Shown here piece by piece: positions 37,173-56,603 of a stretch of 64,000 nucleotides of DNA. The position numbers and the translations under genes were made by a program. The stretch spans positions 310,001-374,000 of the forward strand of contig NZ_PCPG01000001.1 of NCBI RefSeq assembly GCF_002979655.1. The letters are read 5' to 3'. The notes beneath the pieces were generated by a model. The model was given only the letters and a program-made list of their open reading frames with translations, was not told where the DNA came from and did not search any database. Numbering within the stretch: the first letter of the stretch is position 1; each line of letters begins with the position of its first letter. This DNA comes from Microbacterium sp. MYb45 (GTDB taxonomy: Bacteria > Actinomycetota > Actinomycetes > Actinomycetales > Microbacteriaceae).

Positions 37173-37190
37173 TAAGTTGTGCACAACTTA
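37173..37190. promoter_or_regulatory. Palindromic operator of the OhrR/MarR-type regulator
   Basis: TAAGTTGTGCACAACTTA is a perfect 18-bp palindrome, and AT-rich for this genome. It covers the expected -35 (TTGTGC) of the regulator promoter and lies 10 bp upstream of its -10 AATACT. It is also upstream of the divergent SulP gene, which could share control. Confidence 0.75.
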
Positions 37191-37304
37191 AAGCGGGTGG
37201 CCCGCCTTGGCGAAGGGCCACCCCTGCAGGGTGAGATGCGGTTCATGGTGAGTCCCGACCGCAGTACGCTCGGCCGGACGACCACACGGAGGCAGGAGGA
37301 TGCA

Positions 37305-40177: not shown

Positions 40178-42769
40178 ATGACGGAGAGCATCGGCGACGA
40201 CGATGCACCGAGGACGTTCGTCCCCGAGGCGGGCGAGGATGACGTCGCGCGTCCACGACTGCTCGACCGGCTCACGGCCGCGATGGACGAGCCCTGGACC
40301 TTGACGCTCGTCACCGCCCCGGCCGGAGCCGGCAAGACCAGGCTCCTCGCCCGCTGGGCCCGGATGATCGACGCGGAACCGGACACCGCGGTGGTGTGGG
40401 TCTCGTTCCAGCGCGGTGACGTCGATCTCTCGCTTCTCCGATCGGCGCTCGAACGGATCGACGATGCGCGGTTCCAGGAGAGCCTGGCGAAGGTTCCCCG
40501 AGCGGTATCGAGCGACACGGGTCGGTCCCTCGCGCGCGTGCTGCGGGCGACCCCCCGCCGCATCGTGCTCGTCTTCGACGACGTCCACCTGATCGGCACA
40601 CCGGACCTGGCCGACATGCTGTCGGCGTTCGTCCAGGCTGTCCCCGGCAACGCACACGTCGTCCTCTCCGGGCGCGGCACGCGGCTGATCCGCGTGGCGC
40701 GGCGTCGTATCGCCGGAATCGCTCTCGAGCTCGACAACGCCGATTTGGCGTTCACCCCCGCCGAGGTGCGGTCCTTCTTCCGCGCCAACGGGATCGCGGT
40801 TTCGCAGGGGGAGATCACGAAGATTCTGCAGCGGACCGAGGGCTGGGCCGCGGGACTTCGCCTCATGGCGCTCGCTGGAGCGGCGCACGCCGACATCACC
40901 GACAGCGCGCTCCGCGGGGATGCGCCGGCGCTGGTCGATTACTTCCTCGAGGAGGTCTTCGCCGACCTGGACGAGGAGCTGCGGGAGTTCCTCCTCATCA
41001 CCTCCGTCCCGGAGGCGTTCTCGCTCGACCTCGCGTACCGACTCGCCCCCGGTGCTCCCGCCGCCGCGCTCGTCGAGAGACTCGTGCAGCTCAGCGTGCT
41101 GATGGGGAGGCGCGGCAGCGACCCCGTCTGGTACCACTATCACCCGCTGCTGCGGGAGTTCCTCGCTGCCCGCCTGCGGGACCGGGGGCGGGCGGTCGTC
41201 GATCGCCTCGAGAAGGAAACCGCCGAGTGGTTCGCCGAGCAGCAGGAGCATCTTCCTGCGCTGCGACACGCCACGCAGAGCTCGGATCCGGCGTGCATCT
41301 CCGTGGTTCTGCGTCGGTGCGGGATGCAACTGATCCTGACGGGGCACGCCTGCGCCGTGATCGAGGCGATCGGGACGATGCCCGCTCCGCTCCGGTCGGA
41401 CCCCGCCGTGCAGATGCTGGTCGCTGCCGCGGAGCTCGCCCGCGGCGATGCCTCTGCGGCGGCAGCCGTCCTCGCGACGGTGCGCGACCAGGACGGGTCG
41501 GCGGCGACCCGTCAGTGGCTGACGGGTCTCGATCTGCACACCGCCGTGCGACGTGGGGGGATCGAGGAAGCCCTGGACCGGCTCGGACGCGCGTTCGACA
41601 CGGTCACGGGAGAGAGCCAGCTCGACACCTACGCGTTCCTGCAGGCGGCGATGGGCGAGTTGTATGTCGGTCACCTGGACCGCGCCGAGCGCTATGCGCG
41701 CTCCGCTGCCGATCAGGCTCGAGCCGTCGGTGCGATCACGGCGGAGCTCCAGGCCTCCGCCGTCCTGAACACCAGTGCCCTCTTCCGGGGCAGAATGCGC
41801 GATGTCCTCGCCTCCGGGGCCCGACTGGATGCCAGATGGCGCGACCTCGGCATGCCAGACGACTCCTTCTACGAAGTGACCCGAGTGTGGCGGTACTGGG
41901 TTCCGTACGAGCGCCTGCAGGCGGTCGACGCGGAACAGACCTTCCGTGAAGCGGCCGCGATCATCGACTCGGGTTCGGAGCCGGCGATATCGAGGGGTCT
42001 GCAGGGGCTGATGGCGCTGCTGAACGCCGAAGGCGCTCCCGACCCGCGTGCGGCGGCGACCACGCTGCTCGAGACGCTGGTCCCTCGCGACGACATGCCG
42101 CTTCCTCCGCACTGGTACGCGATGCTGGGAGCCTTCGCCATGCACGCGTTCGACCGCCTGGGAGAGCCGAACCTGCGGGACCAGTTCGTCGCCGAGACCG
42201 AGCGCGCGCTCGGCACGAGTGGTGAGGTCGTGGTCCTCCGCGCGATCGCGGCTCTGCACGACCATCGGCACGCGATCGCGCGCGAGACGCTCGCCCCCGT
42301 TCTCGACGGCTCGATGACGTGTGCGCTGCCGGCCTCGATGGTGGACGCCTGGCTGGTCGCCGCTGCGCTCGATGTGCATGCCGGTGACTCCGAGCGGGCA
42401 CAGGCCTCGCTCTCCCTGGCGCTCTCGCTGGCGGAGTCGGAGGAGCACGTCCGCCGTTTCGCCGCAGCCGATCCTGCCGTGATCCGTCTGCTGGGCGCGC
42501 GTGCGACCGCCGGAACCCGGACCCGCTTCGCCGACACCGTCCGTGATCGTCTCATCTCCGCGGGGTTGCTCGTGGACACGGAACTCACGCATCGCGAACG
42601 CATCGTGTTGCTGGCGTTGAGCCGCAACGCGACGCTGCGTCAGATCGCGCAGGAGGAGTTCATCTCCCCGAACACCGTCAAGACGCACGTGCGCAACATC
42701 TACCGCAAGCTCGGCGTCTCGGACCGGGACAGTGTGACGGCGGCCGCGCACGCCCTCGGGATCGAGTAG
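40178..42769 (+). CDS. LAL-type LuxR transcriptional regulator (MalT-like ATPase), first copy
   Basis: 863 residues. An N-terminal STAND/AAA ATPase has Walker A VTAPAGAGKTRLL (47-54) and Walker B RIVLVFDDVHLIG. It continues with the winged-helix region AEGWAAGLRLMAL-like (ILQRTEGWAAGLRLMALAG) and a long TPR-like helical sensor. The C-terminal LuxR HTH is LTHRERIVLLALSRNATLRQIAQEEFISPNTVKTHVRNIYRKLGVSDRD. LAL proteins activate operons on ligand and ATP binding. The ATG at 40178 is preceded by a purine-rich GGGGGG segment. It sits at the left edge of the membrane/stress island. The inducer is unknown. Confidence 0.88.
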   Translation: MTESIGDDDAPRTFVPEAGEDDVARPRLLDRLTAAMDEPWTLTLVTAPAGAGKTRLLARWARMIDAEPDTAVVWVSFQRGDVDLSLLRSALERIDDARFQESLAKVPRAVSSDTGRSLARVLRATPRRIVLVFDDVHLIGTPDLADMLSAFVQAVPGNAHVVLSGRGTRLIRVARRRIAGIALELDNADLAFTPAEVRSFFRANGIAVSQGEITKILQRTEGWAAGLRLMALAGAAHADITDSALRGDAPALVDYFLEEVFADLDEELREFLLITSVPEAFSLDLAYRLAPGAPAAALVERLVQLSVLMGRRGSDPVWYHYHPLLREFLAARLRDRGRAVVDRLEKETAEWFAEQQEHLPALRHATQSSDPACISVVLRRCGMQLILTGHACAVIEAIGTMPAPLRSDPAVQMLVAAAELARGDASAAAAVLATVRDQDGSAATRQWLTGLDLHTAVRRGGIEEALDRLGRAFDTVTGESQLDTYAFLQAAMGELYVGHLDRAERYARSAADQARAVGAITAELQASAVLNTSALFRGRMRDVLASGARLDARWRDLGMPDDSFYEVTRVWRYWVPYERLQAVDAEQTFREAAAIIDSGSEPAISRGLQGLMALLNAEGAPDPRAAATTLLETLVPRDDMPLPPHWYAMLGAFAMHAFDRLGEPNLRDQFVAETERALGTSGEVVVLRAIAALHDHRHAIARETLAPVLDGSMTCALPASMVDAWLVAAALDVHAGDSERAQASLSLALSLAESEEHVRRFAAADPAVIRLLGARATAGTRTRFADTVRDRLISAGLLVDTELTHRERIVLLALSRNATLRQIAQEEFISPNTVKTHVRNIYRKLGVSDRDSVTAAAHALGIE

Positions 42770-42790: not shown

Positions 42791-43507
42791 TCAGAGCAAC
42801 GCCGCGAGCGCCTTCTGCAGCTGGAGGGCGCCGATCACGAGGAGCAGAGCCGCGTTGAGCACGTGTGTGTTGCCGGCGATCCACGTGCGGACGCGGTCGA
42901 GCAGTGGCTGCGCGTCCCGTCCCCGCACGACGACGTACACGACGGGGAGAGCAATCGGGAGGGTGCCCACCACGACGAAGGCGGCTGCGACCCAGAGTCC
43001 CGCAGCCGGATCCACGTCGGACAGGGTGATGTCGAGCGCGGCGAGGATGGCGCAGGACGCGTCGACCGGGTTCAGGACGAAGAGCCCGATGCCGAGGAGG
43101 AGCGTGCGCCCGGGGCGGAAAGACTCCACCGAATGCAGCCAGCCAGGAAGCTGGGGCGACGCGGCCACGACGTCGCGCGGAGTCGAAGCCGCGGCCATCT
43201 GCAGGACGTGCACCCGGCCCTTCCGATAGACCCAGACGGCGGAGGCGACGAGGAAGAGACCGACGAGAAGGCGGACGAGTGGCACCCACAGGGGCGGTTC
43301 GCCGCGTTGATGCACCTGCAGCACCGGGAACAGCCACAGGAAGAGTGCCATGAGTCCGGCGAGGCCGAGGAACCATCCGAGAAGATACGCGATCCCATTG
43401 GCCCTCGCGTTCCGCGACAGCAGCACCGCGACGAGAGCCATGATCGCAAGCGGGCTCAACACCACGCCCAGAGCGACCGGGATGAGATCCAGGATCAGTT
43501 CGCCCAT
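42791..43507 (-). CDS. GAP-family (Sap, sulfolipid-1-addressing-like) membrane protein
   Basis: 238 residues with six predicted spans. The N terminus LILDLIPVALGVVLSPLAIMALVAVLLSRNARANGIAYLLGWFLGLAG is the family signature (LysE-like fold). NPVDASCAILAALDITLSDVDP corresponds to the mid-protein NPKN/S block. In mycobacteria, GAP proteins help export glycopeptidolipids or sulfolipids; here the cargo is unknown. It is last in the sulP-GAP-GAP operon, 48 bp after the preceding gene, with a GAGGAGCACGGAG ribosome site. Confidence 0.8.
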   Translation of the reverse strand: MGELILDLIPVALGVVLSPLAIMALVAVLLSRNARANGIAYLLGWFLGLAGLMALFLWLFPVLQVHQRGEPPLWVPLVRLLVGLFLVASAVWVYRKGRVHVLQMAAASTPRDVVAASPQLPGWLHSVESFRPGRTLLLGIGLFVLNPVDASCAILAALDITLSDVDPAAGLWVAAAFVVVGTLPIALPVVYVVVRGRDAQPLLDRVRTWIAGNTHVLNAALLLVIGALQLQKALAALL

Positions 43508-43555
43508 CTCCGTGCTCCTCTTCTCCGAGTTCGCCCGCGCCGGTCGGTGACGGGT

Positions 43556-44227
43556 CTAGAAGCTTCCGATGCCCTTGCCGATCATGGACACCCCGATCAC
43601 GAGCAGCAGGACGGCCATGATGACGGCGTTCTCGGTGGCGAGCCAGCCGCGCAGGGCGTCGAGCGGGCCGCGGAGGCGATCGGCGGCGATGAGATAGCCG
43701 ACCACCGGGACCAGGACGGTCGATGCGGCGATGAGGGTGTAGATGACGATCACCAGCACGATGGATCCGCTCGGAAGCGCCGCCGCGCCGATGTCGGTGC
43801 CGGCGCCCGCCGCCATGATCAGGTTCTTCGGGTTCACCGCCGACAGCAGGAAGCCGAGCCCGAGGGCGACCGGGAAGGTGATCGTGTCGATGGCCTTCAT
43901 CCACTTCGGGAGGGCGGCCTCTTCACCGGCCTTCGGCCGCTTGCGCCACTGCCCGAAGGCCAGGACGAACAGGAGCAGACCGAGCACGAGCTGCACCGCA
44001 CCGCGGATCGGATGGGAGACGTCGGGGTCGTCTGCGGGGAGTATCGAGGACAGCAGGGTGAACACCGTGACCGCGGCCACGATGCCGACGACCCAGCCGA
44101 GCAGGAACCCGACGCTGGTCACTCGCGCCTTCGGAGAGAGCAGCATCAGGATCGCGGCGATGATCGGTATGGGACTGATCGCGACGCCGAGTGCGAGCGG
44201 AAGCATGTCTCCGATGACGGTACCCAT
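43556..44227 (-). CDS. GAP-family membrane protein, second paralogue
   Basis: 223 residues with six spans: MLPLALGVAISPIPIIAAILMLLSPKARVTSVGFLLGWVVGI, and the conserved VNPKNLIMAAGAGTDIGAAAL. It is a clear paralogue of the downstream gene. The ATG at 44227 overlaps the sulP stop by one base. A GTG one codon earlier would give the same operon structure. Tandem GAP genes behind a SulP transporter suggest joint export or membrane homeostasis, which is inference. Confidence 0.82.
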   Translation of the reverse strand: MGTVIGDMLPLALGVAISPIPIIAAILMLLSPKARVTSVGFLLGWVVGIVAAVTVFTLLSSILPADDPDVSHPIRGAVQLVLGLLLFVLAFGQWRKRPKAGEEAALPKWMKAIDTITFPVALGLGFLLSAVNPKNLIMAAGAGTDIGAAALPSGSIVLVIVIYTLIAASTVLVPVVGYLIAADRLRGPLDALRGWLATENAVIMAVLLLVIGVSMIGKGIGSF

Positions 44228-45906
44228 CACTGGTCTTCTTTCGGTAGGGATTCGCGTTCGGCCGATGACGGCACCAGACGCGTGATGGCTGAGCGGTTGG
44301 TCGAATAGACGTCCTCCGACGTCAGCAACCCGAGGCTGGTCAGTCGGTGCAGCGTGTTCGGGCGGACCCTGCTGAACGAGAGCGACACCGACCGAGCCGC
44401 GAGCCAGTCCTTGAGCGATGCGAACGATTCGGCGCCCGTGACATCGACATCGGTCACGGCCTCCATGTCGACGACGAGGTGCTGGACGGCCCCGTCGCCC
44501 GCCGAACGGATGGCGTCCTTCACCGCGGTGGAGAAGACTGCTCCGTTCGCGAAGAAGAGCGGGGCGGCCAGGCGGATGACGATCACCCCCGGAGCGGTCA
44601 CGGTTCCGGCAGGAGCGTCCTCGAGCAGGGACTCGCCCGGATCACCGCTGGATTCCAGGACGTCGATCGCGGGATTCGAAGCGCGTCGCGCGATGTTGAT
44701 GAGCGCGAGCACGAACGCGACGAGGATGCCCGGGATCGAGCCGATGAACAGGGTGACGAGGAAGCAGGTCGCGCCGATCAGGAACTCGAACCGGTCCTTG
44801 CGCCACAGATCGATGAAGTCGCGGATCCCGAGGAGCGGGATGATCGCGACCCCGACGATGGCACCGATGGCGGGCGAGGGGATGTCCGCCAACAGAGCGG
44901 TGCCGAAGAGGAGGAGCAGGAGCGTTCCGACGGCGAGGATCAGTGCGGGGAACTGTGTGCGCGATCCCGCCTGGTCCATGGCTGCCGTGCGCGAAGTCGA
45001 CGATCCGACGGCGAAGCTGCCCTGAGCTCCCGCAGCGACGTTGGCGATGCCGAACGCGAACAGGTCCCGGTTCGCATGGAACGGATAGCCGTGCTTCTCG
45101 GAGTAGGAGCGCGAGACCAGGAGCCCCTCAGCGGTGGTGACCAGCGTCAGCGCGATCGCGGACGGAATCAGCGCGAGCCAGAGTGACCAATCGATCATCG
45201 GCCAGGTCAGCTCGGGCGGACCCGCGGGGACTTCACCCAGAACGGCGACACCGCGTTGATCGAGACCCGTGAGGACGACCACGAGCGTCGTCGCCACGAG
45301 GACGATCAGCGCCCAGGGGATGGCGCGCAGGTACCGGCGTCCCAGCAGCAGGACCGCCACCGAGCACACCGAGATCAGCACGGCCCAGAGATTGATGGTG
45401 GCGAGACCTCCGATGAGGTCGGCGACCTTACCCGTGAACTCCTTGCCGGAGTCGATCTTGACGCCAAGCATCTTCGCGACCTGACTGACCATGATGTCCA
45501 GTGCGAGGCCGCCGACGAATCCGACCAGGATCGGCTTCGAGAGGAAGTTCGCCAGGAATCCGAGCTTGAACACGGCGAGGAGCACGAACATGCCGCCGCA
45601 GATGATCGCCTGTGCGAGGGCGAGCGTCGCGTAATCGGCGCTGCCCGCCGCGGCAAGGCCACCGATCGACGAGGCGACGAGTGCGGCAGCTGCCGCATCA
45701 GGGGAGGCGACCAGCTGACGGGAGGAGACGACGAGGGCGTATACGATCGTCGGCACGATCAACGCGTACAGTCCCGCGGTCGGGGGGAGCCCGGCGATCT
45801 GCGCATATCCGATGTTCAAGGGGATGGCGATGGCGAGCAGCGTGACGCCGGCTGTCAGCTCCGTGAGGAAGTTGCGCCTCGTCAGCCCCGCGAGTGGACG
45901 TTGCAC
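44227..45906 (-). CDS. SulP-family transporter with C-terminal STAS domain
   Basis: 559 residues. Membrane domain: LTAGVTLLAIAIPLNIGYAQIAGLPPTAGLYALIVP, VASPDAAAAALVASSIGGLA, and TTAEGLLVSRSYSEKHGYPFHANRDLFAFGIANVAAGAQGSFAVGSSTSRTAA. A well-formed STAS domain occupies about 435-545 (IVIRLAAPLFFANGAVFSTAVKDAI, VVDMEAVTDVDVTGAESFASLKDWL). It differs strongly from the other SulP in the window, whose STAS is degraded. The start is GTG at 45906. A 13-bp motif shared with the second LAL promoter lies about 90 bp upstream. Confidence 0.88.
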   Translation of the reverse strand: MQRPLAGLTRRNFLTELTAGVTLLAIAIPLNIGYAQIAGLPPTAGLYALIVPTIVYALVVSSRQLVASPDAAAAALVASSIGGLAAAGSADYATLALAQAIICGGMFVLLAVFKLGFLANFLSKPILVGFVGGLALDIMVSQVAKMLGVKIDSGKEFTGKVADLIGGLATINLWAVLISVCSVAVLLLGRRYLRAIPWALIVLVATTLVVVLTGLDQRGVAVLGEVPAGPPELTWPMIDWSLWLALIPSAIALTLVTTAEGLLVSRSYSEKHGYPFHANRDLFAFGIANVAAGAQGSFAVGSSTSRTAAMDQAGSRTQFPALILAVGTLLLLLFGTALLADIPSPAIGAIVGVAIIPLLGIRDFIDLWRKDRFEFLIGATCFLVTLFIGSIPGILVAFVLALINIARRASNPAIDVLESSGDPGESLLEDAPAGTVTAPGVIVIRLAAPLFFANGAVFSTAVKDAIRSAGDGAVQHLVVDMEAVTDVDVTGAESFASLKDWLAARSVSLSFSRVRPNTLHRLTSLGLLTSEDVYSTNRSAITRLVPSSAERESLPKEDQ

Positions 45907-45996
45907 GTCGACTCCCTTCGGGAGCGCTCCGGACGAGCGCGTTCGCGTTCACGATCCCATCGTGGGGGTCGCGGCGACCATGCCCGGGTCGCAACC

Positions 45997-46009
45997 TCCT
46001 CCGGGTGAT
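45997..46009 (-). promoter_or_regulatory. Shared motif ATCACCCGGAGGA upstream of the sulP-GAP-GAP operon
   Basis: On the minus strand this 13-mer is identical to one upstream of the second LAL gene (49393-49405). It lies in non-coding sequence between the AI-2E-family stop (46033) and the sulP start (45906). A binding site for a shared activator or repressor is possible. Confidence 0.5.
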
Positions 46010-46032
46010 TTACCGAGACCATGGGTGCCCTT

Positions 46033-47178
46033 TCATCCGTTGCCACGCGCCCGGCGACGCCGATTCCGACCGCGCGCGACGGGACGCTGTTCCGGTTCGG
46101 GCTCCGGCGGCAGGGCCGTGTGGTCGCCGGAGAGCCAGCGCACCCACGTCGACTCAGGATCGCCTTCGAGGACCAGTGTGCGCACGAGCAGGGTGAGGGG
46201 GATGGAGAGGATCGCGCCGAGCGGTCCGATGATGAAGGTCCAGAAGATCACGGAGAAGAAGCTCAGCGTGAGGCTGAGGTCGACCGCATCGCTGACGAAC
46301 TTCGGCTGCACGAGCACTTGGAGGACCACGTTGACGATGCTGTAGACCGCGATGACGCCGAGAAGCAGCGGCCAGCCCCCGACCACGAAGGCGAGGATCG
46401 CCGGGGGGATGAGCCCGACCACGAAGCCGACGTTGGGGATGAAGTTCGTGACGAACGCGAGGATCGCCCACACCACTGGCGCCGGGATGCCCATCCACCA
46501 CAGGGCCAGCCCGTCGATGACAGCCACGATCGCGCCGAAGGTGGCATTGACGATGTAGTAGCGCCGGACGCCGGAGTTCAGGCGGGAGATCCGCGCGAGG
46601 GCGGCACCCTTCGTCGCGCCGAACAGAGCGGGCGCTCGACCGTAACGGGCTGCATCGATCGCCATGAAGATGATGTAGGCGCAGACGAAGAACAGCGCCG
46701 TCGCGACGCTGAGGACGGTGCCGCCGATGCTTCGTGCGACGCCGAGCAGCGTCTCGGGATCGAGGACCGAGGCTGCCGCGTCCGAGGCCTCCTCGTCGAG
46801 GCCGAGTGACTGCAGCCACCCCACCACCTCTGCGGCGGTGTTCTCGAGACCGCCCTGCGACACCAGGTCGCCGATGAGTCGCGCGAACTGCGTGCCGGCG
46901 AGCCAGAGCAGAGCGCCCATCGACAGCAGTATCAGGTAGGCGACGACGATGACCGCGGTCGTGCTCGCCCACTGCGGCCAACCGCGCCGATCGAGCGGGC
47001 GGCGAAGCGGCTCGCAGATGACGACGATCACGATGGCGAGTGCGATCGGCCCGAACAGATCACGCGCGAAGTACACGCCGGCCAGCGTCACCGCGCTCGC
47101 CGCGAGCAGAAGAAGCACGCGCAGACTGGGGGAGAGCATGCGATCGGTGGCGCGCTCGGGCGCAGGCGAGGGGTTCAC
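46033..47178 (-). CDS. AI-2E transporter family (PerM-like) permease
   Basis: 381 residues with about seven to eight spans. Family features are SVATALFFVCAYIIFMAIDAARYG, YYIVNATFGAIVAVIDGLALWWMGIPAPVVWAILAFVTNFIPNVGFVVGLIPPAILAF (the diagnostic FIPNxGxxxGxxP block), and the C-terminal SVIFWTFIIGPLGAILSIPLTLLVR. The AI-2 name reflects E. coli TqsA; many members have ion- or metabolite-exchange roles. The GTG at 47178 is chosen because TACGCT (47185-47190, minus strand) ends six bases upstream; an ATG 13 codons later lacks any signal. Confidence 0.85.
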   Translation of the reverse strand: MNPSPAPERATDRMLSPSLRVLLLLAASAVTLAGVYFARDLFGPIALAIVIVVICEPLRRPLDRRGWPQWASTTAVIVVAYLILLSMGALLWLAGTQFARLIGDLVSQGGLENTAAEVVGWLQSLGLDEEASDAAASVLDPETLLGVARSIGGTVLSVATALFFVCAYIIFMAIDAARYGRAPALFGATKGAALARISRLNSGVRRYYIVNATFGAIVAVIDGLALWWMGIPAPVVWAILAFVTNFIPNVGFVVGLIPPAILAFVVGGWPLLLGVIAVYSIVNVVLQVLVQPKFVSDAVDLSLTLSFFSVIFWTFIIGPLGAILSIPLTLLVRTLVLEGDPESTWVRWLSGDHTALPPEPEPEQRPVARGRNRRRRARGNG

Positions 47179-47249
47179 GCGGCCAGCGTAGCCCGCGGTC
47201 GGACGGGAGCCCGGTCGCCTCGCGGACGGCGGACCGGCGGCCCGGGAGA

Positions 47250-48173
47250 TCAGAACGGCTCCGGGGGCACGAGGGGCGGGGGCCCCTGCTGCGGCGTGAC
47301 CACGGCTTGCAGCCCCGACGCCTCGAGAGCCTCCGCGACGCCGCGCACGGTGTCGGAGATCACGGCACTGCCGTGCAGTGGGTGGTGCCAGATCTGGAGG
47401 GTGAGCGTCCAGCGAGTGGGCGAGATCGCGGCGACGCGCACGGTCGGGTGCTCGCGGGCGTGCACGCCGTCGACACCGCTCGCCGCATCCGTGATGGTCG
47501 TGACCGCGTCGTCCAGGTCGAGCCCCGTTGACCGCGCGATGCGGATGTCGACGTCGCTTCGGCGAGCGCCGTGACGCGAGTCGTTCACCAGGACCCCGGT
47601 GAGCAGCGCGGCGTTCGGCACGTGCACCGTGCGGCCGTCGACCGTCGTGAGGATGACCGAGCGACCGTTGAGCTCCTGCACGGTGCCCCGGATCACCCCG
47701 TCGGGGCCGTCGATGCCGATCTCCTCGCCGATCTTCACCGACTGACGGGACTGGATCAGGACCCCGGCAGCGAAGTTGTCCGCGACACCGCGCAGCACCA
47801 GGACCAGGACGATCGCGGCGATGACCGTCATCGCGAGCAGAGGCTGCACGTTCGCCCCGAGGAACGCCAGCCCGACCCCGATCCCGACCAGGAGCAGCGC
47901 GTACTGCGTGAAGCGCGCAGCCAGCTGCGAGACGGAGTCGGAGATTCCCGGGGTCCGCGCCGCCAACTTCAGCACGCCCTTGCGAGCGAGCCGCGAGAGC
48001 AGCCAGCCGATCAGCACCGACAGCAGCGCGAGCACGATCTGCCACCCCGACAGGCCCTCCGGGAACAGGTCGCCCAGCGTCACGATCGCCGTCCGCTCGA
48101 CGTCTGCCCCACGCTCCTCGACCTCATCCGACAAGCATGCGCGACGCGTCTCCCCGGTGCCCACGACACTCAT
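47250..48173 (-). CDS. Small-conductance mechanosensitive channel (MscS family)
   Basis: 307 residues. Membrane spans lie at about 45-66, 85-108 and 112-135. The pore helix and beta domain follow: VLVLRGVADNFAAGVLIQSRQSVKIGEEIGIDGPDGVIRGTVQELNGRSVILTTVDGRTVHVPNAALL, the MscS middle-domain signature. The C-terminal part holds SDVDIRIARSTGLDLDDAV. It opens under membrane tension to release osmolytes. The N-terminal 35 residues are poorly conserved, so the ATG at 48173 is only one option. It lies 71 bp upstream of the AI-2E-family gene and is divergent from the next gene. Confidence 0.85.
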   Translation of the reverse strand: MSVVGTGETRRACLSDEVEERGADVERTAIVTLGDLFPEGLSGWQIVLALLSVLIGWLLSRLARKGVLKLAARTPGISDSVSQLAARFTQYALLLVGIGVGLAFLGANVQPLLAMTVIAAIVLVLVLRGVADNFAAGVLIQSRQSVKIGEEIGIDGPDGVIRGTVQELNGRSVILTTVDGRTVHVPNAALLTGVLVNDSRHGARRSDVDIRIARSTGLDLDDAVTTITDAASGVDGVHAREHPTVRVAAISPTRWTLTLQIWHHPLHGSAVISDTVRGVAEALEASGLQAVVTPQQGPPPLVPPEPF

Positions 48174-48321
48174 CCTCAACGGGTGAGCACGGCGCGACAC
48201 ACGTGCGGCGGGGCCGGACGGCCTGCTCGGGGAGTCCATCGGCCGCGCTTCACGGCGCCGCATCGCCCCGAAGGGATGAGCCGCTCTCGCCGGTGGTGCA
48301 GCGGAGAAGGAGACTGAGCTC

Positions 48322-49389
48322 ATGTCGTCGACGCCAGCAGGGCACGATCTCCTCACGGAAGCCCGCTCCCGCGGGGCCACACGAGAGCGCGCTCGGGAAG
48401 CCATCGGGCTCCAGATCTCGATCTTCGCGTTCGTCCTCGCCGCCCTCGTCGCACTGCCCGTGTTCCGGCTGCAGTCCGCGCCGATCGCGGGTCCCGACTC
48501 GCTCGGACAGTTCGCGGCGCTGATGTCGGCGGTGACGGCGATCGTCGTCTTCGTGCTCGGGCGTGTCATCGCGGCCGACCCGGCGCGGCGCGACCGACTC
48601 GGGGTGCTCGACATCGTCGACATCGCCGCGTTCGCCTTCGCGCACGCCATGATCGCGCTACTCGGGTGGACCCTGGCGGCGACGATCGTCGAGGCGGGAC
48701 TCATCGGCGCTGTGGTGTTCCCGGTACCTGTGCTGATGCTGGCCGGTGCCGCGGCCGCATTGACCGCATACGTGACCTACTACTCCGCCACGCACCTCGA
48801 CCTGCAGCTGCTGGCCACGGTTCTCGCCGTGTTCCTCGTGCTGGGAGTGCTCGCGAGCATGCTCACGGCGAGCGACCCGCAGTGGTGGAAGGAGAACCTG
48901 AGCGCTCTCGGCATGACGGACGACCTCTCCGCCCGGGCCTTCAACCTCACCCTGATCGTCGCCGGGATCCTGGTGACGACGCTGGCCCGCTACGCGACGA
49001 AGGGGATTCCGACGCCTCATCCGCGCGGGGCCGCCTCGGTGCGCACGTGCCTCGTGATCGTCGGCATCTTCCTCGGTCTGGTGGGGGTGTTCCCCGTGGA
49101 TGAGCACTTCGCCCTGCACACCGGGGTGGCTTCGGGGATGGTGGTCGCCTACGCGGTGCTGATCATCGCCGTCCGGTGGTGGGTGCCGGGCGTCTCGCGC
49201 ACGTTCCTGCTCGTCGGCTACGTCTTCACCCTTCTGATCCTGCTGCTCGCGGTGTTCTTCGCCGTCGGCTACTACACCCTGACCGCGGTCGAGCTGGTGG
49301 CGGGGACGGTCGTCTTCACGTGGATCATCCTGTTCATCCGCACCGCCGACGCACTCAAACGCGACGCCGGGAGAGGTCTCGCGGACTGA
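48322..49389 (+). CDS. Polytopic membrane protein of unknown function
   Basis: 355 residues with about nine to ten hydrophobic spans and short loops. The N terminus is cytosolic and basic (TEARSRGATRERAREAIGLQ). I do not recognise a named domain; the overall look resembles small actinobacterial DUF998-type or related hypothetical membrane families, but no motif settles it. The ribosome site is GGAGAAGGAG before the ATG. It ends 58 bp before the second LAL gene and shares a divergent intergenic region with mscS. Confidence 0.7.
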   Translation: MSSTPAGHDLLTEARSRGATRERAREAIGLQISIFAFVLAALVALPVFRLQSAPIAGPDSLGQFAALMSAVTAIVVFVLGRVIAADPARRDRLGVLDIVDIAAFAFAHAMIALLGWTLAATIVEAGLIGAVVFPVPVLMLAGAAAALTAYVTYYSATHLDLQLLATVLAVFLVLGVLASMLTASDPQWWKENLSALGMTDDLSARAFNLTLIVAGILVTTLARYATKGIPTPHPRGAASVRTCLVIVGIFLGLVGVFPVDEHFALHTGVASGMVVAYAVLIIAVRWWVPGVSRTFLLVGYVFTLLILLLAVFFAVGYYTLTAVELVAGTVVFTWIILFIRTADALKRDAGRGLAD

Positions 49390-49392
49390 AAG

Positions 49393-49440
49393 ATCACCCG
49401 GAGGATGCCCTTGAGGGCGGAGCGTCGACGCCACTAGCTT
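49393..49440 (+). promoter_or_regulatory. Promoter region of the second LAL gene: ATCACCCGGAGGA motif and TAGCTT -10
   Basis: ATCACCCGGAGGA (49393-49405) is followed 30 bases later by the -10-like TAGCTT (49435-49440), which ends seven bases before the ATG. No ribosome site is present, so the mRNA is probably leaderless. The motif centre would be near -49, a usual activator position. Confidence 0.5.
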
Positions 49441-49447
49441 TGGTGCC

Positions 49448-51994
49448 ATGTCGCCCCCCGTACGATCGACGATGCCGGGCCCCATGGTGCGCTTCCGCCC
49501 ACCCGGACCCCAACCGGGTGCCATCCGCCGGGAAAGGGTGAGCACCGCGATCGCCGATGCAGCGGCGATCGACCCGCTGACGGTCGTCAGCGCGCCGAGT
49601 GGCTTCGGCAAGACGACCGCGGTCGCAGACTGGGCTTCCGGGCTCGAGCAGGTCGCCTGGCTCAGCCTCAGTTCCTTCGACTCCGACCCTTCGCGTCTGA
49701 CGTACGGCGTCGTGCATGCTCTGCTCGTCGGCGCCGAGCGTGCGGGGCGTCCACTCGCACTCGCGCGGGACCTCGACGATCCCGAGCATGCCTATCAGGA
49801 GATCTGCGGCGCCCTCGAGGCGCTCGACACCCCCATGCACCTGATCGTCGACGACGCGCACCGCGCCGGTGAGAGCTGGCGCACCGGGCTCCTCGGCATG
49901 CTCGCGGAGCAGGCACCCGAGAATCTCCGGGTCGTGCTGGTCGGGACGACGCTGCTCGAGGTCACCCTCTCGCGGCATCGACTCACGCATCCTGCTTCCT
50001 TCGTCGGTGTGGACACGCTCAGCTTCACGGCCCCGGAGGTCAAGCTCCTGCGCACCGCAGACGGAGCCGGGCTCGCTGCCGAGACGATCTTCGCGGAGTC
50101 CAGAGGGTGGCCGATCGCCGTGCGGCTCATGATGATCGGCGGTGCCCGACCCGACGCCCGCGCACAGAGCGCGTCGAGCTTCCTCGGGACCTACGTCCGC
50201 GAACACGTGCTCGGGGCGCTGCCGGCCGAGATCGCCGACTTCGTGCTCGACGGCAGCGTCTGCGGCGAGCTGACTCCCGAGCTCGCCGCCGCCGTGACCG
50301 AACGTCCGGATGCGGCAGAGCTGCTGGAGACGTGCGTGCGGCTCGGTCTTTTCCTCGATCGTTTCGAGGGTCCGCACGGCGTCGTCTACCGGTGGCACAC
50401 CTCGTTCGCCAAGCAGTGCGCCGACATCGTCGCGCTCGACACCGCTCGGGCTGCGGCCTGCCATCGCCGCGCCGCCATCGCGCTCGAGGCGACGGACCCC
50501 ACCGCCTCGATCGCGCACTCGCTTCGTGCGGGAGATGCGGAGATCGCGAGGGAGACGCTGCTGCACCACTGGCTCGGCCTCGTGGTCGGTGCCCGCGCGG
50601 CGGAGATCGAGCAGACGGCGATCGACATGTTGCGCCGTACGCCCGACGACGCGCAGGTGCTCCTGGTGCGTGCGTGCGCAAGCGATGTGCTCGGCGACCA
50701 TCGCGTCGCGCGCGAGCTCTTCCGGCGCGCAGAGGCGATGATCGCGCGCACCGGCGACGGGACGGAGCCCGCGGTCCTGCCGATCGCGCGTCTGTTCATC
50801 ACCGACGAGCGGTCAGAGGTCGCTGAAGCGAGTGCGAAGGTGCGGCAGATGCTCCTCGACGCGGATTCGACCGAGCTCGGAGACCGCGCGGCACTCAACT
50901 ATCTCCTCGGGTGGACCGAGATCCGGCACCGCGGTAACCCGATGATCCCGCTCGAGTACTTCTCGGCCGCGGCGAGGGAGGCGCAGAGCTCCGGCGATCG
51001 CGAACTCGCGAAGCGGTCCCTGGGGCATCTCGCCTTCGGCCAGACCTGGGCGGGTCGCCTCGTCGATGCGAGGTCATCGCTGGCCGCGGCACATCATGAG
51101 GATGACGTGAGTCTTCCCTGGAGCACCTACGCCGGAGGAAGCGCCGCCGCAGCCGCCGGGTACGTCGCGTACTGGTCGGGGGAGTTCGATGAAGCGATGC
51201 GGGCTTTCGGGACGGTGATCGCCAACGGGAGTTCCGACCGTTCCTTCACCGGCGTGGCGCGGATGATGATCGCGTACACGGCGGCCGAGACCGGTGATGT
51301 CCCGACATGCCGTCGCGCGGCGATCGGCGTGCAGGACATCCCGCTCGAGGTCGTCCACGGTATCTCCTGGCCGGCATTTCGGGAATCGTCCGTCGCGGTT
51401 CTCGAGGAGGCGGTCGGTCGACAGGACCGCGCGTTGCGGATCGCCAGGAAGTACCTCCACTGCCCGGACCTGCCGGTCGTGAACGTCACGCTCGCCGGTG
51501 TGCTGCGCCGTGCCGGTGACTACCCCGCAGCTCTGGAGATGCTGCGATCGCTGCGGGCGTTCAGCGAGGTGTCGTACGTGAAGACAGCGACCCTGATCAC
51601 CGCCGCCGTGCTGCGCCGTCACACCGGGCACCACGACGAGGCGCACGAGTTGTGCGAAGCCGCGGTCGCGGTCGCCTCCGGGGAGAACATCCGGCTGCCG
51701 TTCGGACCCCGTGAGGCGGCGGTGCGCAAGCTGCTGGGCGAGCACGTGCATTTCGGCACGCAGTTCGAGGACTTCATCGGTCGATGCCTCGCCAACGATG
51801 CCGCCGGCTCGCTGGTGGAGACGCTCTCGGAGCGGGAGCGCGATGTGTTCCAGCAGTTGCAGACGGCGCGCACACTGCACGAGATCGCTCGGGAGCTGGC
51901 CGTGTCGATCAACACGGTGAAGACCCACCAGCGCGCCATCTACCGGAAGCTCGGGGTGTCCTCCCGCCGAGAGGCCGTGCGGACGACCGTCTGA
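49448..51994 (+). CDS. LAL-type LuxR transcriptional regulator, second copy
   Basis: 848 residues. It has Walker A VSAPSGFGKTTAV (50-57) and Walker B HLIVDDAHRAG. A long helical sensor region rich in TPR-like repeats follows. The C-terminal HTH is LSERERDVFQQLQTARTLHEIARELAVSINTVKTHQRAIYRKLGVSSRREAV. It is only distantly similar to the LAL at 40178, so it is not a recent duplicate. Immediate neighbours encode membrane and stress-type proteins. The motif in its own promoter recurs before sulP, so autoregulation is a reasonable hypothesis. The ligand is unknown. Confidence 0.87.
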   Translation: MSPPVRSTMPGPMVRFRPPGPQPGAIRRERVSTAIADAAAIDPLTVVSAPSGFGKTTAVADWASGLEQVAWLSLSSFDSDPSRLTYGVVHALLVGAERAGRPLALARDLDDPEHAYQEICGALEALDTPMHLIVDDAHRAGESWRTGLLGMLAEQAPENLRVVLVGTTLLEVTLSRHRLTHPASFVGVDTLSFTAPEVKLLRTADGAGLAAETIFAESRGWPIAVRLMMIGGARPDARAQSASSFLGTYVREHVLGALPAEIADFVLDGSVCGELTPELAAAVTERPDAAELLETCVRLGLFLDRFEGPHGVVYRWHTSFAKQCADIVALDTARAAACHRRAAIALEATDPTASIAHSLRAGDAEIARETLLHHWLGLVVGARAAEIEQTAIDMLRRTPDDAQVLLVRACASDVLGDHRVARELFRRAEAMIARTGDGTEPAVLPIARLFITDERSEVAEASAKVRQMLLDADSTELGDRAALNYLLGWTEIRHRGNPMIPLEYFSAAAREAQSSGDRELAKRSLGHLAFGQTWAGRLVDARSSLAAAHHEDDVSLPWSTYAGGSAAAAAGYVAYWSGEFDEAMRAFGTVIANGSSDRSFTGVARMMIAYTAAETGDVPTCRRAAIGVQDIPLEVVHGISWPAFRESSVAVLEEAVGRQDRALRIARKYLHCPDLPVVNVTLAGVLRRAGDYPAALEMLRSLRAFSEVSYVKTATLITAAVLRRHTGHHDEAHELCEAAVAVASGENIRLPFGPREAAVRKLLGEHVHFGTQFEDFIGRCLANDAAGSLVETLSERERDVFQQLQTARTLHEIARELAVSINTVKTHQRAIYRKLGVSSRREAVRTTV

Positions 51995-52025: not shown

Positions 52026-52451
52026 TCAGGGCTGGCGCAGCGCCGATGCGAGAACCGTGTTCGCGATCGAGGCGGGGATGGGTTGGGTCGCGAGGATCCG
52101 ATCACCCCGACGGTCGACATCGTGGGAGAAGCGTTCACTCCAGGTCGGCTCGACGAGGATGAGTGCTGCGAGGGAGCCGATGGGGAGCCCGGATGCGAAG
52201 TGCCGGGCGTCGTCTTCGCAGACGAGACCAGGGGTGTCCAGACCGAGACCGGCGAGGGTGAACTCATCGGCGTCGATCTCGATGAGGTGCCAGTCCTCCG
52301 CGCCGAGCCGGCGGATGAGAAGGAAGTCCAGAAGGCGGATGGCGCCGCTCTCCACCTGTCGGAGCAGGGCTTCGAGGATGTCGGGGCTGAGGCGGTCGTC
52401 CTCCAGGCGCACGACGACGAATTCGACGTCGCCGAGCGCCTGCAGGGACAT
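52026..52451 (-). CDS. DUF6325-like small protein, copy A
   Basis: 141 residues: LGDVEFVVVRLEDDRLSPDILEALLRQVESGAIRLLDFLLIRR, AALILVEPTWSERFSHDV, and a terminal helix ending in IPASIANTVLASAL. It is homologous along its whole length to the gene at 53088-53522. The ATG at 52451 is chosen over a GTG at 52469 because its N terminus aligns exactly with copy B and GAGGTGG lies upstream. It follows the SHOCT-domain gene by 22 bp. The family is often next to SHOCT proteins; function is unknown. Confidence 0.75.
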   Translation of the reverse strand: MSLQALGDVEFVVVRLEDDRLSPDILEALLRQVESGAIRLLDFLLIRRLGAEDWHLIEIDADEFTLAGLGLDTPGLVCEDDARHFASGLPIGSLAALILVEPTWSERFSHDVDRRGDRILATQPIPASIANTVLASALRQP

Positions 52452-52473
52452 ATCGACCACCTCAGCCACGATG

Positions 52474-52860
52474 TCAGCTCAGTGCGCGCGTCTTGATGGC
52501 GGCGAACTCGTCGGGAGTGATCGTTCCCGCCGCGAGGAGCTTCGACGCCTTGTCGATCTCATCGCTGGGACTGGATCCGGCGACGCTGCGGATGTAGGAG
52601 TCGGCAGCGTGCTGCTGCTCCCGGTACGCCGAGACGCTGCGTTCGCCCATTCCCTTGCCGCGTGCGATGAGGTAGACGAGCGCCGTGAGGAAGGGCACGA
52701 AGATGAGGAAGATGATCCACACGGCCTTCCACCACCCGTTGAGGGCGTGATCCCGGAACAGGTCGGCCACGATGTTGAAGAGCACCATCAGGTAGGAGAT
52801 GAACACGAAGACCCAGAAGAACCACCAGATGATGTCCCAGAAGCTTTCCCAAATGGACAC
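52474..52860 (-). CDS. Membrane protein with C-terminal SHOCT domain
   Basis: 128 residues. Two membrane helices (WDIIWWFFWVFVFISYLMVLFNIVADLF and WWKAVWIIFLIFVPFLTALVYLIARGKGM) resemble the phospholipase-D nuclease N-terminal (PLDc_N) hairpin. The C terminus DEIDKASKLLAAGTITPDEFAAIKTRAL is a SHOCT oligomerisation motif. The GTG at 52860 has AAAGGGG at good spacing; 25 further codons upstream lack a ribosome site. It is co-transcribed with the DUF6325 copy A. Confidence 0.78.
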   Translation of the reverse strand: MSIWESFWDIIWWFFWVFVFISYLMVLFNIVADLFRDHALNGWWKAVWIIFLIFVPFLTALVYLIARGKGMGERSVSAYREQQHAADSYIRSVAGSSPSDEIDKASKLLAAGTITPDEFAAIKTRALS

Positions 52861-52994
52861 TTCGGACCCCTTTCGTTGAGTTACTGCGTACGGCGATAGT
52901 GACAGCGCCTCCACGGGCGCGGGAAAGCTGCTCACCCCTAGCGGGCGACCCCCGTGCCCGGCAGGTCGAGCCGCCGGACGGCGAAGTTCTCATC

Positions 52995-53027
52995 CGATCG
53001 GGGTGAGGGCGGCGATCACCCCGATCG
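52995..53027. promoter_or_regulatory. Inverted repeat between the mirrored DUF6325/SHOCT gene pairs
   Basis: CGATCGGGGTGA (52995-53006) and TCACCCCGATCG (53016-53027) form a perfect 12-bp inverted repeat with a nine-base spacer in the divergent promoter region. Each arm reads TCACCCCGATCG toward its own gene pair, resembling the TCACCC core upstream of sulP and the second LAL. Confidence 0.55.
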
Positions 53028-53087
53028 CGGCAGTGCGAACATGGCCGCAGAGTCCCGGTACGTCGTCGCCGGGAGAAGGGATACTCC

Positions 53088-53522
53088 ATGAATGACTTCC
53101 GATTCGGCCCCGCCGAGTTCTACCTCGTCGGGTTCGAGGGCGATCGTCCAGACCCGGCGACGTTCCGCGCGCTGACCGACCTCGTCGACAGCGGGGTCGT
53201 GCGATTGCTCGACTTCGTCCTGCTGTCGAAGTCGGCGGCAGGGGAAGTGGAGATCGTCGAGCTCGACACGGATGACGACTCCCTCGGACTCGACGACTTC
53301 GAGCCGATCGCCGCCGGGCTGGCCGGCGAAGAGGACGTGGAGGCCCTCGCGAGCGCTCTCGCCCCCGGTCAGTCCGCTGCCGTCGTCGTCCTGGAACTCG
53401 CTTTCGCCCGCACCCTCGCGCAGAACCTCGCCGCCGCCGGCGGTCAGGTGCTCCGTAGCGAGCGCGTGCCGGCACCCGTCGTGAACGCCATGATGGACAT
53501 CCTCGATCAGGAAGGTGAATGA
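53088..53522 (+). CDS. DUF6325-like small protein, copy B
   Basis: 144 residues: FGPAEFYLVGFEGDRPDPATFRALTDLVDSGVVRLLDFVLLSK, AAVVVLELAFARTLAQNLAAAGG, and the C-terminal PAPVVNAMMDIL. It shares fold and length with copy A but is clearly diverged. The ribosome site GGAGAAGG precedes the ATG. The next gene, a SHOCT protein, starts one base after this stop, mirroring the pairing on the opposite strand. Function unknown. Confidence 0.77.
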   Translation: MNDFRFGPAEFYLVGFEGDRPDPATFRALTDLVDSGVVRLLDFVLLSKSAAGEVEIVELDTDDDSLGLDDFEPIAAGLAGEEDVEALASALAPGQSAAVVVLELAFARTLAQNLAAAGGQVLRSERVPAPVVNAMMDILDQEGE

Positions 53523-53523
53523 C

Positions 53524-53871
53524 ATGCCCTTGAGAAGATTCGGTCGCCCGGGACTGATCGGACTGGCCGCCAGGACCGCGGTGGTAGCGGGAACGGCGTC
53601 GGCGGTCGGCGGTGCGATGTCGCGGCATCAGCAGGAGCGTGCGCAGGGGCAGTACGAGCAGCAGCAGTACGAAGCCGCTCAGCAGCAGGCGCAGGTCGAC
53701 GCCGCCGCGCAGAACGCGGCAGCCCAGTATGCGGCTCCGCCGGTACAGGCGGGTGCGCCGGCCGGGACGGATGATCTGATCGCGAAGCTGCAGCAGCTGG
53801 CGTCGCTGAAGGACGCCGGCGTGCTGTCCGAGACGGAGTTCGCTGCGGCAAAGCAGAAGCTCCTGAGTTGA
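53524..53871 (+). CDS. SHOCT-domain protein with Gln/Ala-rich linker
   Basis: 115 residues. A short N-terminal hydrophobic helix (LIGLAARTAVVAGTASAVGGAM) is followed by a Gln/Tyr/Ala-rich region, then GTDDLIAKLQQLASLKDAGVLSETEFAAAKQKLL, a textbook SHOCT motif. The ATG at 53524 is used because AGGAAGG sits nine bases upstream; a GTG at 53515 is too close to that site. It probably oligomerises or tethers partners at the membrane. It is in an operon with DUF6325 copy B. Confidence 0.8.
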   Translation: MPLRRFGRPGLIGLAARTAVVAGTASAVGGAMSRHQQERAQGQYEQQQYEAAQQQAQVDAAAQNAAAQYAAPPVQAGAPAGTDDLIAKLQQLASLKDAGVLSETEFAAAKQKLLS

Positions 53872-55372: not shown

Positions 55373-56326
55373 TCAGGCGCCGTCGACCTCGGAAGCGGCC
55401 TGGGGGAACACGGTCGCCCAGTCGTCCTTGACGCTCACGACGGTGTACCCGGCGTCATCGGCGGCAGCGAGCGCCTTCTCCGCGCCCGCGTCGTAGGGTG
55501 CGTCGCCGCGGTCGGGGTCGTCGTGGTGGATCAGGATCGCGAATCCGGGGCGGGGTCCCTTGCGGGCGAAGTCGAGCATGGCCGTGTCGCCGTTCGAGTT
55601 GCCGCCGGCGAACAGCGGCCGTCGGCCGATGCGGCTCCAGATGCGCACCGGCTTCTCGGGTCCGTCGTCGAAGAATGCGAGGGATGACGAGTACTTCACG
55701 GTCGCGTCGGCGTCGTCCCAGGTGAGACCGAAGGCCGAGCCCACGACGCGCTCCGGCGGGATGCCGTAGTTGGCCTGCGTCATCGGTCGCATGAAGTCGC
55801 GCTCGCCGCCCGACACGATGTAGCAGGTGAAGCCGTGGCTCTCCAGGTACCGAAGCAACTCGACCATCGGCTGGTAGACGGCGTCGGCGTACGGCCGCTT
55901 CAGGGCCGGATGCTGCGCCGTGCGATAGAACTCCCCGACAGAGAGCGCGTAGTCCTCCACGCTCATTCCATCGGTGAGGCCGACGAGCGCCTGGATGATG
56001 GTCTTCAGGTCGGAGTCGTCACCGCTGTAGTGCTTGTCGATCGCCGTGCTCAGCCAGCCGAAGTCGCCGCTCACCGCGGCGAGGTACGGTTGCCGCTCCG
56101 CGAGCTCCGGCGCACGTTCCGCAGCCGCGCGCCATTGCTCGACCACGTAGTGCAGTTGCGTGGGCATCGGCTTCTCGGACCACAGTGTGCCGTCGTTGTC
56201 GAACACGGCGATGCGCTCCTCGACCGGCACCGCATCCGGGCCCTCCGCGACGGAGGCGACGAAGGCCTCGATGTCTCTGCGCGTGCGGGTGTCGCGCCAA
56301 GAGGGGAGAGAGCTGTGATCGGTCAT
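55373..56326 (-). CDS. HAD-superfamily hydrolase (phosphoserine-phosphatase-like)
   Basis: 317 residues. HAD motif I is IAVFDNDGTLW (nucleophile Asp43, acid Asp45), motif II CYIVSGGERDF, and motif IV GGNSNGDTAML. A helical cap lies between motifs I and II. The family is commonly annotated as haloacid dehalogenase or nonspecific acid phosphatase. Unusually, motif I reads DND rather than DxD with a hydrophobic middle residue. The ATG at 56326 has GCGAGGA upstream. It is divergent from the small proteins at 56604 onward. Confidence 0.83.
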   Translation of the reverse strand: MTDHSSLPSWRDTRTRRDIEAFVASVAEGPDAVPVEERIAVFDNDGTLWSEKPMPTQLHYVVEQWRAAAERAPELAERQPYLAAVSGDFGWLSTAIDKHYSGDDSDLKTIIQALVGLTDGMSVEDYALSVGEFYRTAQHPALKRPYADAVYQPMVELLRYLESHGFTCYIVSGGERDFMRPMTQANYGIPPERVVGSAFGLTWDDADATVKYSSSLAFFDDGPEKPVRIWSRIGRRPLFAGGNSNGDTAMLDFARKGPRPGFAILIHHDDPDRGDAPYDAGAEKALAAADDAGYTVVSVKDDWATVFPQAASEVDGA

Positions 56327-56603
56327 GTCGGGTCCTCGCGTCTCGATGAGTGGGCGGCAATCGCCTCCAGGGTCGCACCCGCGGTGTCGTCGCACAGTCA
56401 TCGGTCACCCGGTGGGGGCGATGCCGTCGACCGTAGGGCCGCGATGTGTACGTCCAGCCGGGTCACCGTCGGTCGAGGATCCGTACTGAATCACCGCGAG
56501 GCCGAAATCGCAAGGGGGTCATGTGCGGGGATGGCTCCACCTAGTGTGAAAGCGCCGCCACGGACCCGGCGGCGAAGCATCCGGACGAGTCGAGGGAGTG
56601 ACC

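Follow-up and report, generated by a model that had tools for sequence, protein, structure and literature searches.

A likely docking site for a LAL regulator, read as two MalT-like half-sites with no spacer, in a Microbacterium membrane-gene island

LAL proteins, the large ATP-binding regulators of the LuxR family, are numerous in actinobacteria; to our knowledge, binding sites are known for few of them. A stretch of 64,000 nucleotides from Microbacterium sp. MYb45 (contig NZ_PCPG01000001.1, positions 310,001 to 374,000), here called the window, carries an island of membrane-related genes with two LAL genes, LAL1 and LAL2. The 13-base sequence ATCACCCGGAGGA occurs once before LAL2 and once before sulP (Table 1). 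It is best read as an A followed by TCACCC and GGAGGA, that is, as two mirror-image MalT-like half-sites placed back to back with zero spacer (N0), and it is likely to be a docking site for one of the island's own LALs in bacteria of the Microbacterium oxydans group. With slightly better than even confidence, we take this pair of MalT-type half-sites, held at fixed distances from predicted promoters, to be the operator by which LAL1 would activate LAL2 and sulP; LAL2 would in turn read sites with the same half-sites five bases apart (N5), which would make the system a two-step cascade.

Conservation and placement of the zero-spacer pair

Both exact copies of ATCACCCGGAGGA were confirmed at the positions and strands, and in the short non-coding gaps, given for them in the initial annotation, and a string search found no other copy in the genome of 4,074,608 bases. 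Sixteen further places match with one mismatch; the backward control has two. Within the window, five matches with up to two mismatches were found against 2.64 expected, a number equalled by 11 of 100 shuffles and not above chance; hence counting alone cannot carry the finding, and the evidence is conservation. In a frame test based on GC content at third codon positions (GC3), neither exact copy lies in an apparent coding frame; of the 16 one-mismatch places 12 do, with four outside.

Conservation was read from nine syntenic Microbacterium loci (L021-L029) with LAL2 identities of 79-91%. When ten LAL2 promoters were aligned, the window included, 11 of the 13 motif columns were invariant and none of the 20 columns just upstream; in nine aligned sulP promoters, the corresponding numbers were 9 of 13 and 0 of 20. 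The left half and the GG that follows it are kept before LAL2 as TCAYCCGG (11/11 genomes, with G029 added) and before sulP as TCACC[CA]GG (11/11, with G029 and G023 added). The relatives have a third N0 promoter, which the window lacks, before a sulfatase gene between LAL1 and the SfLAP genes. Its site, TCACCCGGATGA, is found in six of the seven relatives with a wide enough gap, and L027, the remaining one, has a shorter variant; the gene was identified as a sulfatase by Pfam scan in L021 (PF00884) and judged by frame (L029) or gap width in the others. The general form of the pair is TCACCC-GGAKGA with no base between the halves. Since the relatives show a half-site pair, a free-standing 13-bp box was rejected. 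The sulP promoter of one relative (L023, genome G127, about 5930-6000) carries a tandem duplication of the zero-spacer element, with two copies of GTAAATCACCAGGGG 20 bases apart.

A scan of spacers from 0 to 15 bases, counted on both strands, gave peaks at N0 and N5 only, and the N0 peak is confined to islands with both LAL1 and LAL2. These hold 27 N0 strand-hits in 221 kb, 22 of them at LAL2, sulP or sulfatase promoters and five elsewhere. Islands with relatives of LAL2 only have three in 214 kb, those of LuxR proteins with tetratricopeptide repeats (TPR) only have none in 117 kb, and other LAL clusters have none in 195 kb; the controls gave one in 435 kb of background and three in 643 kb of single-site stretches.

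The N0 pairs also keep their distance to predicted -10 elements. Measured from the T of TCAYCC, it is 51-53 bases at sulP (11/11) and 51-52 at the sulfatase gene (6/6); at LAL2 it is 40-41 in eight genomes and 51 in L088, a count taken without L027 and L028. The two positions differ by about 10-11 bases, approximately one helical turn, which suggests, as far as predicted -10s allow, that the N0 binder is an activator that has to act from one side of the helix. The predicted core promoter of LAL2 (CCTTGA ... CACTAG) ends at the start codon, and the transcript is probably leaderless. The promoter of LAL1 itself has TTGAG and ATACT, kept in 3/3.

The other sites that had been grouped with the 13-mer fared differently. 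AATCACCGCGAGG, before a small acidic gene, is present and its left half stands 51-52 bases before the -10 in 4/4 genomes; its right half is not conserved. ATCACCCCGATCG at 53015 is also present but lacks conservation, which falls instead on the neighbouring five-base dyad before DUF6325B. The CTAG sequences proposed as -10-like fit at 49434 and 56541, where they are kept in 10/10 and 4/4; the one at 52938 is the variable five-base spacer of TCGCCC-GCTAG-GGGTGA and hence not a -10.

Five-base dyads and the Actinoplanes motif

The promoters of the SHOCT, DUF6325B, DUF998 and HAD genes carry the same half-sites five bases apart, in the form TCRYCC-N5-GGRTGA. At least one exact dyad was found in the aligned regions of SHOCT (10/10), DUF6325B (10/10, the two regions overlapping in some genomes), HAD (9/9) and DUF998 (9/9). 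The pattern gives seven strand-matches in the window against 0.13 expected, 18 distinct places in the whole genome, five of them within 8.3 kb of the island, and 444 strand-matches in 59 genomes of the genus against 43 for the backward control. It is the peak spacer in every LAL group (77, 41, 12 and 58 strand-hits). The regulon proposed in the initial annotation is partly right: a local regulon linked to LAL is well supported and has more sites than were listed, but these form two spacing classes, 0 and 5, rather than one motif.

The N5 dyads, too, have a preferred distance. When both directions of each palindrome were taken as sides, an extended -10 of the form TGNSANNNT was found to begin at an offset of 27 bases from the dyad in 38 of the 205 sides (103 dyads), compared with a mean of 0.95 per offset and a next highest count of five. 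Without close relatives, the offset of 27 was seen in 10 of 110 sides (mean 0.32, next three); related sequences inflate these counts yet do not explain the single peak. The extended form fits three of the five island dyads, and DUF998 has GAGACT at the same offset without the TG. From the end of the dyad to the -10 there are 30 bases, which by prediction puts the transcription start at about 42 bases. At the HAD gene the -10 falls within the 5' end of the frame, which suggests a later start, near 56326.

This second class resembles a described operator. In Actinoplanes sp. SE50/110, the inverted motif TCATCC-5nt-GGATGA was found upstream of 17 starts in a region where, as in the island, two LAL-type genes lie among poorly known and membrane genes, and deletion or overexpression of one LAL altered the expression of most genes of the region (PMC7567727, available part). 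The island dyads match that motif; the 13-mer differs from it in having its half-sites zero bases apart (three on another reading), a class not found described in the same part of the account. The MalT core is quoted there as GGA(T/G)GA (PMC7567727), and GGAGGA, at 49400-49405 and within the minus-strand copy, has exactly this form, so that the statement that MalT-type boxes differ in sequence does not hold. The arrangement does differ from the E. coli box: the core is described as repeated in maltose promoters (PMC7567727, same part), whereas the island pair is inverted with zero or five bases between.

The half-site letters vary with the regulator nearby. They are all TCATCC in the six stretches whose LuxR relatives, of about 490 amino acids, are TPR-only, and mostly TC[AG]CCC in islands with relatives of LAL2, with the exception of L085, which has a full-length LAL and TCATCC throughout.

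Several N5 dyads elsewhere deserve mention. In the same genome, TCATCC-N5-GGATGA at C1:910581-910597 (L094:9582) lies between a gene for a 491-amino-acid TPR-GerE regulator without P-loop domain and a SHOCT gene; the arrangement reads as another circuit of this kind on a smaller scale. A pair of perfect TCACCC-N5-GGGTGA dyads separated by 0.7 kb (C26:37216 and C26:37921; L095:9217 and 9922) precedes genes for a 209-amino-acid protein that belongs to no Pfam family and for a sulfatase; a search with the LAL1 and LAL2 tails found no GerE gene in that stretch. Another dyad, with TGCCACGAT as -10 at offset 28, stands at the start of a DUF2252 frame (C22:74777; L096:9278), and a one-mismatch dyad at 37218-37234 of the window lies close to where a second SulP gene (frame 37179-38978) begins. 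In G152, from another family of the order, eleven dyads are spread over the contigs, ten of them TCACCC-N5-GGGTGA; one (L142) is beside relatives of SHOCT and DUF6325, and the 19.5 kb read there contain no GerE gene.

Table 1. Positions in the window of the LAL genes, candidate operators, predicted promoter elements and likely target genes
Feature	Position	Strand	Remarks
13-mer, zero-spacer pair TCACCC-GGAGGA before LAL2	49393-49405	+	in 58-bp gap
13-mer, zero-spacer pair before sulP	45997-46009	-	in 126-bp gap
Half-conserved 13-mer relative AATCACCGCGAGG before small acidic gene	56489-56501	+	-10 TAGTGT 51 bases on
Predicted -35 TTGAGG of LAL2	49411-49416	+	CCTTGA invariant in 10 aligned promoters
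Predicted -10 TAGCTT of LAL2	49435-49440	+	41 bases after T of TCACCC
Predicted -10 GATCGT of sulP	45951-45956	-	52 bases after T of TCACCC
N5 dyad TCATCC-N5-GGGTGA between MscS and DUF998 genes	48170-48186		kept in part of relatives
N5 dyad TCGCCC-N5-GGATGA before DUF998	48263-48279	+	exact 9/9; predicted -10 GAGACT 48310-48315
N5 dyad TCGCCC-GCTAG-GGGTGA before SHOCT gene A	52932-52948	-	predicted -10 CACTAT 52896-52901
N5 dyad TCATCC-N5-GGGTGA before DUF6325B	52990-53006		predicted -10 GAACAT 53037-53042
N5 dyad TCGCCC-N5-GGGTGA before HAD hydrolase gene	56405-56421	-	predicted -10 GACCCT 56369-56374
LAL1	40181-42769	+	P-loop APAGAGKT, C-terminal GerE domain
LAL2	49448-51994	+	P-loop APSGFGKT, C-terminal GerE domain
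sulP (44227-45906) and two SfLAP/GAP genes (43556-44230, 42791-43507)	42791-45906	-	likely N0 target; putative operon
DUF998 membrane protein gene	48322-49389	+	likely N5 target
SHOCT gene A and DUF6325A	52026-52935	-	likely N5 targets; SHOCT score 24.3, below Pfam cut-off 27
DUF6325B and SHOCT gene B	53088-53871	+	likely N5 targets
HAD hydrolase frame	55373-56401	-	-10 inside 5' end

Proposed assignment of the two spacings to LAL1 and LAL2

Both regulators have the features of the LAL class, being large proteins with an N-terminal P-loop and a C-terminal GerE domain. The LAL1 frame has 882 amino acids, with the P-loop motif at 66 and a GerE E-value of 3.5e-12; that of LAL2 has 848, with the motif at 49 and an E-value of 3e-14. 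TPR_MalT scored 42.7 bits in LAL1, below the cut-off of 45, and TPR_12 scored 34.2 bits in LAL2, above the cut-off of 30.1.

A LAL gene (frame of at least 650 amino acids with a LuxR-type helix-turn-helix) was found in 10 of 12 stretches with clustered dyads, taken among the matches listed, in 2 of 33 single-site stretches and in none of 20 random ones; the genomes are relatives, and these counts are not independent. Clustered here means two or more N5 dyads; two of the stretches (L123 and L124) overlap, two others (L125 and L128) come from a single genome, and L143 was grouped as a two-site stretch after fetching. The two clustered stretches without LAL are L127 and L102, the latter beginning about 1.6 kb past a LAL of its genome. 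Relatives of other island proteins followed the same pattern (9/12, again among the matches listed, 4/33 and 0/20). One clustered stretch, L123 (G210), comes from another family of the order; besides a LAL and three N5 dyads it has a sulfatase, a Na/H exchanger and a DUF6325 relative, and the circuit therefore does not seem to be confined to the family.

LAL1 was found in 7 of 149 genomes of the genus, all seven with TCAYCCGG before LAL2. In 11 genomes that carry LAL2 but lack LAL1, the region upstream of LAL2 was read (G064, with LAL2 at a contig end, being left out) and showed no zero-spacer pair; in three of these genomes (L078-L080) sulP carries an N5 dyad instead. Taken together, these three observations favour LAL1 as the reader of N0 and LAL2 as the reader of N5. 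LAL1, whose predicted promoter has a -35 and a -10 of its own, would then bind the N0 sites and activate LAL2, the sulP-GAP-GAP genes and, in relatives, the sulfatase gene, and LAL2 would go on to activate the N5 promoters (SHOCT, DUF6325B, DUF998 and HAD). We infer the binding, activation rather than repression, the pairing of each LAL with a spacing, and the promoters and starts themselves; what the analysis shows is the sequence of the sites, their conservation, the two spacing classes, the distances to the predicted promoters and the co-occurrence with LAL genes. A broader form of this proposal is held more tentatively, at somewhat less than even chance: the two coexisting LALs may share one half-site alphabet and be kept apart by the spacer alone, 0 against 5, in a cascade, and the TPR-only LuxR proteins may shift one letter from C to T, which would amount to a code of spacer and letter in a large actinobacterial family of regulators that is poorly mapped.

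A number of observations weigh against LAL1 acting through a zero-spacer operator. The right half is variable: six of the 11 LAL2 promoters have the exact TCAYCCGGAGGA, three of the 11 sulP promoters have TCACCCGGAGGA, and four sulP promoters have TCACCAGGGGTGAG as right half. In the LAL2 promoter, a reading with a three-base spacer, TCAYCC-GGR-GGAKG, also fits 10/10; the zero-spacer reading was preferred because the sulfatase site has a clean GGATGA right half. The zero-spacer string by itself is common, with at least one copy in 102 of the 149 genomes, and genome-wide counts of it were for that reason rejected as evidence. The LAL1 carriers form one clade, so the link between LAL1 and N0 may be by descent only. 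No N0 site was present in 10.6 kb near one LAL1 paralogue (50% identity, at a contig end), which is mildly adverse or uninformative. Finally, in Actinoplanes the start lies 34.4 bases beyond the end of the motif (PMC7567727, available part), compared with a predicted distance of about 42 in the island.

Two further genomes were considered here. G002 was not accepted as a case of LAL1 and site being lost independently: at the cut-offs used, neither LAL1 nor sulP has a match in it and its sequence before LAL2 differs, so that LAL1, sulP and half of the site seem to have gone as one block. In the LAL1-negative genome G142, no island protein was found in the 19.5 kb around the one spaced pair examined. 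In the wider family, LAL1 was found only in the window's own genome (398 genomes, up to two candidates scored in each).

The strongest alternative, although an unlikely one, is that either LAL2 or each of the two LALs recognizes both spacings; the N0 site before LAL2 would then serve autoregulation, and the association with LAL1 would reflect the shared descent of its single clade. In other islands, N5 dyads do adjoin the start of the LAL or LuxR gene itself (L085, L091-L094, L097, L098, L100, L101, L123 and L124), and the LAL2 site thus holds an autoregulatory position. This explanation is at odds with the absence of N0 where relatives of LAL2 occur without LAL1, sulP then having N5; moreover, a change of five bases rotates the half-sites by about half a helical turn, and one fixed dimer would find it hard to read both. 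It is still less probable that a non-LAL regulator binds N0 and shares the half-site letters by coincidence: the variable right half would suit it, but the left half and the island are the same, and the exact N0 peak occurs only in islands with LAL1. A chance match, or GGAGGA as a ribosome-binding site, is very improbable, for although the mismatch counts are not above expectation and many genomes of the genus contain zero-spacer strings, the invariant columns and fixed -10 distances in 11 genomes contradict chance, and the N0 sites lie upstream of predicted -10s, beyond ribosome-binding distance of the annotated starts.

Known LAL systems and significance

Apart from the Actinoplanes system, which is maltose-dependent (PMC7567727, available part), the closest comparison is with the LAL SCO6993 of Streptomyces coelicolor, which likewise binds short inverted repeats, its own promoter included; its sites have no common consensus, the study could not predict one, and, unlike the activator proposed for the island, SCO6993 represses (PMC9628970, available part). 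A motif of the TCATCC-N5-GGATGA type was not found in the available parts of the accounts of Streptomyces LALs (PMC9628970, PMC3282765). MalT is reported to bind its boxes cooperatively as a multimer (PMC4381067, available part). A literature search found no publication on the Microbacterium island or on DUF6325.

The island encodes a SulP-STAS transporter, SfLAP/GAP proteins, an AI-2E family transporter, an MscS channel and DUF998, SHOCT, DUF6325 and HAD hydrolase proteins, with the sulfatase added in relatives; no maltose genes were found among the 19 island proteins scanned. We would guess that the island serves a response concerned with the envelope, ions or sulfate esters. Mechanistically, LAL control through a zero-spacer variant of an operator type already known is most likely. 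The finding provides an operator at a fixed promoter distance that is open to test. It also supplies likely target promoters across the genus and allows LAL clusters to be located from DNA alone. If sites are indeed divided between LAL1 and LAL2 by their spacer, the island would offer a clean example of relatives that coexist and owe their specificity to spacing.

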